From assembly GCA_958296065.1 (NCBI GenBank), contig CATQHX010000073.1, forward strand, positions 62,001-126,000: a stretch of DNA of 64,000 bases. Direction: 5' to 3'. Source of the DNA: Vicinamibacterales bacterium (GTDB taxonomy: Bacteria; Acidobacteriota; Vicinamibacteria; Vicinamibacterales; UBA8438). A model generated the notes under the pieces. That model did no database searches. It had not been told where the DNA came from and worked only from the letters and a program-made list of their open reading frames with translations. The translations under genes were made by a program, and so were the position numbers. Positions 40,993-48,529 of this stretch are shown here, piece by piece (the stretch's first letter is position 1; each line of letters begins with the position of its first letter).

Positions 40993-41211
40993 CGCAAACT
41001 CCTGGCGCCCCAAGACGCCTCGCTGGCTCGGCGTTTCGGCCCATCCCCCGCCCCACGAGTCTGCGCCGCATAACTCACTCCGTTGCGTTTCTGCGGCGCA
41101 AACTCCTAGCGCCCCGAAACGCCTCGCGGGCTCGGCGTTGCGGCCCATCCCCCCCGCTCCAGAAGTCTGCGCCGCAGAACTTCACTTCGTTGCGTTTCTG
41201 CGGCGCAGACT
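40993..41211. repeat. Direct repeats of about 105 bases with a 16-base inverted repeat
   Basis: Two similar units start at 40993 and 41097, and a third begins at 41204 where it runs into the toxin gene end. Each has the order CGCA(A/G)ACTCCT, a GC-rich middle with GGCTCGGCGTT, and TCTGCGCCGCA. In the second unit, 41164-41179 and 41196-41211 are perfect 16-base inverted arms (AGTCTGCGCCGCAGAA) around a 16-base loop. This resembles REP/BIME-type intergenic elements. Related pieces occur at 5949, 29628 and 63108. Confidence 0.75.
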
Positions 41212-48100: not shown

Positions 48101-48529
48101 CTACCGTGTCGGCTGAATCGGTCCCTCGGCGGGACGAGCCGTGTCTCCGACCTCGTGTCCGCTCGCCTTCCAGTCGTTCAATGCACAGAATTCGCCGGCG
48201 CTGTAACCGTTGGATCTGAAGAGCTCCGCGGCCCGGGAGCTCCGCCCTCCGGCGTTTCAAAAGAAGACGAGCCGCACGTCCTTCGGAATGTCCGGCATGC
48301 GGGCCTCGAGCTCGCCGACCGGAATGTGGATCGAGCCGGGGATCGAGCCGCTCTCCACCTCGTAGTCCTCCCGGACATCGATCAGCAGCACCTCCGCACC
48401 GGCATCGAGCTGCGCCTTCAGCTCGTCGACATCCAGACGTTGGGTCTGCGCGGCCGCCGAAGCCGCCAGCACCAGCCCGAGCATCGCAAGCGTCGTGCCT
48501 GCGCGTGTCACCATCTGTCTCGCTCTCAT
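48101..48529 (-). CDS. Exported rhodanese with in-frame TGA at the catalytic Cys (candidate selenoprotein)
   Basis: Read straight through the TGA at 48257-48259, this is a 142-residue single-domain rhodanese. A signal peptide (residues 1-28, ASAAAQ) shows export. The first half holds EVLLIDVREDYEVESGSIPG and GSIHIPVGELEARMPDIPKD. Residue 91, where rhodaneses have the sulfur-carrying Cys, is TGA. It is followed at once by the active loop NAGGRS and then SRAAELFRSNGYS and DWKASGHEV, ending at a TAG at 48101-48103. No frameshift occurs in the 51 codons after TGA. If TGA stops translation, the protein is a 90-residue stub without its active site. The ATG at 48529 has GAGG seven bases before it; an ATG at 48514 is an alternative. 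Confidence 0.68.
48220..48243 (-). promoter_or_regulatory. SECIS-like hairpin after the rhodanese TGA
   Basis: In the mRNA sense, GGAGCTCC (48243-48236) pairs with GGAGCTCT (48227-48220), giving seven Watson-Crick pairs and one G-U pair around an 8-base loop CGGGCCGC. The loop begins 21 bases after the TGA and has a G in its first two positions. These values fit the general bacterial SECIS rule as I know it (loop 16-37 bases after TGA, a G early in the loop). A weaker competing fold nearer the TGA exists. GC-rich DNA makes chance hairpins common. Confidence 0.4.

Follow-up and report, generated by a model that had tools for sequence, protein, structure and literature searches.

Rhodanese selenoproteins have been predicted since 2005. 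A 2026 review distinguishes five rhodanese-like selenoprotein forms, two of which, forms 2 and 4 (MBM9537886.1; MCY3690685.1), carry a ‘UxxG’ motif (PMC13188914). According to the same review, selenoproteins known so far almost always have homologues with Cys, and such Cys/Sec pairs are what many detection methods rely on. The gene considered here lies in a stretch of 64,000 nucleotides (the window) from a Vicinamibacterales bacterium of the phylum Acidobacteriota. A preceding interpretation of the DNA letters, referred to below as the sequence-only reading, took its product for an exported rhodanese selenoprotein of an unusual kind. The selenoprotein part of that interpretation is supported; one correction is that rhodanese selenoproteins are an already known kind of protein, and another concerns the role of a conserved second Cys, described below.

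The coding sequence occupies positions 48104..48529 on the minus strand and comprises 142 residues including U91, from an ATG at 48529-48527 to a TAG stop at 48103-48101. Codon 91 (48257..48259, minus) is an in-frame TGA at the position of the rhodanese catalytic Cys. It is followed directly by N-A-G-G-R-S, and the frame stays open for 51 further codons. Codons 91-96 (48242..48259, minus) specify the six-residue active loop U-N-A-G-G-R, with a conserved Arg at its end. The coordinates, the codon number, the NAGGRS context and the 51-codon continuation to TAG had all been given exactly in the sequence-only reading, from which the strand had been omitted. The protein matches the Pfam Rhodanese model (PF00581) with E = 8.6e-15 (55.5 bits, cut-off 22.2). 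An AlphaFold2 model based on 15 family sequences has a mean pLDDT of 81.5, the N-terminal export segment being the least confident part. Its fold agrees with solved rhodaneses in the PDB, with TM-scores of up to 0.90 by target length. In the same model, the part encoded 3′ of the TGA is predicted to contain helices 95-105 and 117-122 and strand 111-114. Neither a promoter nor a terminator was found when the locus was scanned for them.

Comparison across genomes bears directly on the status of codon 91. When about 85,000 species genomes were scanned, six close relatives emerged, all from acidobacterial assemblies and 61-90% identical, and all six have TGA at this codon. Of 193 genomes of the class, 17 gave a match at E <= 1e-25; each of these orthologues has a single in-frame TGA, always at this position. 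A second class search found TGA in every match down to 8.9e-29; below that level, most matches were long frames containing an ordinary Cys rhodanese domain, and tandem paralogues also occurred. With the wider phylum and class searches, orthologue sequences were read from a total of 38 acidobacterial genomes belonging to many families, and TGA is present in 38/38. No Cys orthologue was found among these 38 genomes or in the searches of the class and phylum. Samples of two other phyla (395 and 398 genomes), which are thin, contained no family member at the thresholds used, only Cys rhodaneses; this distribution suggests that the family is restricted to Acidobacteriota. One weak match with two TGA codons (L205; G665 C18) came from the Desulfobacterales-centred phylum search. 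It is a rhodanese with a C-T-U (CxU) active loop resembling that of the known CxU selenoprotein form, and has Cys at the position equivalent to Sec91.

The downstream part of the gene is under purifying selection: dN/dS over the 45 codons after the TGA is 0.09-0.28 in eight pairs and, except in one near-identical pair, is similar to that of the 60 codons before it. Conservation of the TGA together with this selection indicates a real gene and not a broken one. A recent Cys-to-stop mutation or a sequencing error in a pseudogene would be easy to produce, TGA being one base away from TGC or TGT, but the same TGA recurs in 38 genomes from separate assemblies and several families of the phylum, and the codons beyond it are selectively maintained. 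These two lines of evidence refute that explanation, which retains next to no probability. One outcome that the sequence-only reading had named as fatal to its proposal, Cys codons in place of TGA in all close relatives together with decay elsewhere in the gene, is thus contrary to what is found: the relatives carry TGA and none has Cys, and dN/dS gives no sign of decay.

Two further explanations concern how the UGA is read. At UGA codons of this type, termination competes with Sec insertion, so codon 91 could in principle be a regulated stop, with the truncated product of 90 residues as the functional protein. The sequence after the TGA is, however, conserved and under purifying selection, and it holds the two predicted helices (95-105, 117-122) and strand 111-114; a regulated stop is therefore very improbable. 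Alternatively, UGA might be reassigned throughout the genome, be read by near-cognate suppression, or direct insertion of Cys by a selC*-type tRNA-Cys. UCA-anticodon tRNAs of the selC* type do exist in some bacteria (PMC7609411). Several of the orthologues, however, terminate in TGA; UGA has thus kept its meaning as a stop codon at other sites, and reassignment is rejected on this ground. Against selC* tRNA-Cys, which has U73, the UCA tRNA of congeneric genomes has G73, and selA and selD are present. Taken together, this second group of explanations deserves very little credence. UGA 91 is almost certainly read as Sec.

The machinery for Sec insertion is largely visible in the genome from which the window derives (6.47 Mb in 83 contigs, 94.9% complete). 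Its selB is a 667-aa frame scoring 321.6 bits against a curated cut-off of 242; selD scores 298.8 bits (curated cut-off 125) and selA 538.8 bits (curated cut-off 268). No selC was found in this 94.9% complete assembly, where the Rfam matches are tRNAs that ARAGORN reads as Ser, Leu and Tyr, plus a CUA tRNA; nor is there a tRNA at the selA, selB or selD loci. Genomes of the same genus do encode a tRNA-Sec with UCA anticodon and G73 (3/3 congeners). The block that flanks selC in these congeners has its counterpart in the first 1.6 kb of one contig (C56) of the window's genome, as alignment shows, and the spacing in the congeners would put selC about 60-190 bp past the end of this contig, whose first 778 bases do not align to the congeners. 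A plausible account, short of proof, is that selC lies beyond the contig end. A genome devoid of sel genes, which would have spoken against the proposal, is thus not what is found, with selA, selB and selD present and selC in all three congeners.

Two other features of these genomes may be recorded here. The CUA-anticodon tRNA, which reads UAG (G000 C4:50819-50908; L094 1503-1592), has a long arm, G73 and an encoded CCA. ARAGORN calls it Pyl; judged by G73 and the D stem of 3 bp, it resembles a serine-type amber suppressor. The stop codon of the Sec-rhodanese gene is TAG, the codon read by this tRNA of the same genome. In addition, the window's genome (G000) contains more than 40 copies of a dispersed repeat, about 105 bp long and apparently forming two hairpins. 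Most copies are at 83-92% identity, and two of them lie in tandem at 41005-41207 of the window; the repeat was also noted at L128 1564-1668. A copy directly adjoins selC in a relative (G184). The repeat looks like a REP/BIME-type element and has no Rfam match.

Bacterial SECIS elements are described by a model (bSECIS) with a loop of 3-9 nt in which one of the first two nucleotides is G and the next is mostly G or U, and a stem of 4-16 bp, located 16-37 nt after the UGA and with a minimum free energy of at most -7.5 kcal/mol (PMC13188914). The candidate hairpin in the window (48221..48242, minus) conforms to this description. Its 7-bp stem pairs the GGAGCUCC-side arm at 48242-48236 with 48227-48221, and the 8-nt loop CGGGCCGC (48235-48228) has G in second position and then another G; the hairpin lies 21 nt after the UGA and has a predicted energy of -20.7 kcal/mol. 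Folding of the single sequence gives a stability no better than that of shuffles (z = -0.87), and the argument for a SECIS element therefore rests on comparison.

Two kinds of comparison are available. Firstly, codons +7 (TCC), +10 (GCG), +11 (GAG) and +12 (CTC) after the TGA are invariant in 17/17 close orthologues, and all four Ala codons are used at loop codon +9. Restricted to well-conserved four- and six-fold residues, invariant codons number 3/5 in +7 to +12 vs 0/25 elsewhere, a synonymous constraint with a Fisher p of about 0.0025 by hand arithmetic from the codon table. Secondly, 13 sequences from more distant relatives, in which the loop has 5 nt, show covariation of the hairpin pairs at the third positions of codons, with three pairs changed on both sides and 10 double-changed cells. 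The covariation score is 0.326, vs 0.101 +/- 0.038 in shuffles (0/500), and slid controls reach at most 0.070; the number of double-changed pairs is not above that in shuffles (151/500). The tool warns that kinship inflates these covariation figures, and the slid controls answer part of that concern. A single fixed column structure for all groups was rejected: the loop has 8 nt in the f1 group and 5 nt in others, and L140-L145 fit neither well. Codon constraint, covariation and agreement with the published bacterial model all favour a SECIS hairpin, for which the sequence-only reading had suggested a search, and its description of the gene as a rhodanese selenoprotein likewise gains from the TGA conservation, the sel genes, the hairpin and the purifying selection.

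At its N-terminus, the protein has a predicted Sec-pathway signal peptide spanning approximately residues 1-27 (48449..48529, minus; ...LAMLGLVLAASAAA) and typical of its kind; this is a by-eye reading with an approximate cleavage point. The relatives likewise have signal peptides or, as in GWGCGGG, lipoboxes, also read by eye. Export, which had been claimed for the window protein before, is thereby supported across the family, and a periplasmic location is predicted, with lipoproteins in some relatives.

From the loop region onward, the residues invariant across the family alignment are U91, G94, R96, A100, A101, G108 and C115. The last of these (48185..48187, minus) lies in the motif F-C-A-L-N-D-W, just after predicted strand beta-5, and is a candidate resolving Cys. 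Its surroundings follow a pattern of [FY]C, with L or I two residues on and then the usual D-W/Y, 24 residues after Sec, and C115 is kept in every complete exported family member. All the ordinary Cys rhodaneses read lack this second Cys (FCxLxDW) and mostly have an N-L-x-G-G (‘GG’) loop there. In the AlphaFold2 model, strands are predicted at 86-90 and 111-114, so that U91 and C115 each directly follow a strand. In the rhodanese fold, the strands that precede these two sites are neighbours in the parallel sheet; U91 and C115 should therefore be close. Conservation and predicted placement point to a redox pair of C115 and Sec91.

Given the conserved second Cys, plain sulfur transfer is no more likely than a selenol-thiol redox role. 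The leading account, and a probable one, is that of a rhodanese-fold redox enzyme that is exported and works with a Sec-Cys pair. UGA 91 would be recoded by SelB, Sec-tRNA and the hairpin just downstream. Following export, the Sec91 selenolate in the active loop would attack sulfane sulfur, a disulfide or another oxidant; Cys115 would then resolve the Se-S or selenenic intermediate to give a Sec-Cys bridge, which a periplasmic thioredoxin-like reductant would open. What has been observed is the gene, its fold, the conserved TGA and Cys, the sel genes and the constraint on the RNA; insertion of Sec in the cell, its pairing with Cys, the reductant and the substrate are inferred. A broader proposal is more tentative and falls a little short of being probable, namely that of a Sec-only family of exported rhodanese-fold selenol-thiol oxidoreductases across Acidobacteriota, in which the resolving Cys replaces the ‘GG’ loop.

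A true selenoprotein could also be a classical sulfurtransferase, with Sec91 carrying sulfur (as Se-S) from thiosulfate or polysulfide to cyanide or a thiol acceptor, and Cys115 structural or secondary. The rhodanese fold itself is in keeping with this. A published rule for thiosulfate/polysulfide sulfurtransferases requires a six-residue loop with the catalytic residue first and Arg, Thr or Ser last, and in yeast RDL2, with the loop CAKGVR, it is the loop-end Arg on which decomposition of thiosulfate depends (PMC8533005). At the level of the loop motif only, U-N-A-G-G-R agrees with the rule, with Sec for Cys and an invariant Arg, and conservation of this Arg leaves sulfur transfer possible. 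Sulfur transfer as the main role is nevertheless rather unlikely, as a second Cys beside Sec, in no ordinary rhodanese read, speaks for a redox pair, and no sulfur-pathway gene is seen as a conserved neighbour. More generally, neighbours are constant on both sides only within the genus (a downstream alpha/beta-hydrolase-like gene and an upstream divergent large gene). No operon partner common to the family was found beyond the genus, in an analysis limited by overlapping frames in GC-rich DNA; without a shared neighbour, the surroundings indicate neither partner nor substrate.

Genomes of one family (f18; L182-L187) contain two Sec-rhodanese genes in tandem, both with an in-frame TGA. The second copy is without an evident signal peptide, and in L183-L187 Ser replaces the second Cys (FSGLKQY). 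This paralogue, with Sec and without the second Cys, is a point in favour of sulfur transfer. Since Sec is kept where the pair is lost, the redox-pair reading is limited to the exported copy, and the Ser-for-Cys exchange implies that some family members can do without the Sec-Cys pair.

If the leading account of an exported Sec-Cys enzyme is true, a poorly cultured phylum possesses exported Sec-Cys selenoproteins, which would point to selenium-dependent periplasmic sulfur/redox chemistry. Under the broader proposal, a periplasmic redox enzyme would have been built on a sulfurtransferase fold, with no earlier description as such. The positions of U91 and C115 provide a direct handle on the mechanism. 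The closest relatives found all have Sec, and the only Cys proteins are ordinary rhodaneses at a greater distance; annotation can therefore easily reduce such genes to truncations of 90 residues. The literature searched, which excludes most subscription journals, yielded no report of a Sec-rhodanese that has a resolving Cys or of an exported acidobacterial form.

Single-domain Cys rhodaneses (PspE, GlpE, yeast RDL2 and the rhodanese domain of 3tp9) share the fold and, in many cases, the loop-end Arg; they have Cys for Sec, and the second Cys (FCxLxDW motif) is missing from all those read. The Sec-rhodanese from the Sargasso Sea was placed in another rhodanese group, COG2897. Among the NCBIfam selenoprotein models, the best match is NF041203, the rhodanese-related (seleno)protein of the LYCAU type (form 3), at 40.9 bits against a cut-off of 115; its motif is CxU, whereas the window protein is without CxU and has Sec at the catalytic Cys position. 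The rhodanese/DsbD fusion TsoB (NF045694; form 5; 16.6 bits, cut-off 805) has a rhodanese domain with Sec in common with the window protein, but it combines two Sec residues with a DsbD-like fusion, as opposed to one Sec in a single domain. Forms 2 and 4 are alike in having a Pfam Rhodanese domain and the Sec motif UxxG (here UNAG), a likeness established by description only; export, a second Cys and an acidobacterial distribution are not among the features given for them (PMC13188914). Form 2 is listed under COG0607, and at the level of motif comparison the window protein is possibly identical with it. The Sec-rhodanese of the window is accordingly regarded as a variant, or possibly a member, of the already known Sec-rhodaneses.
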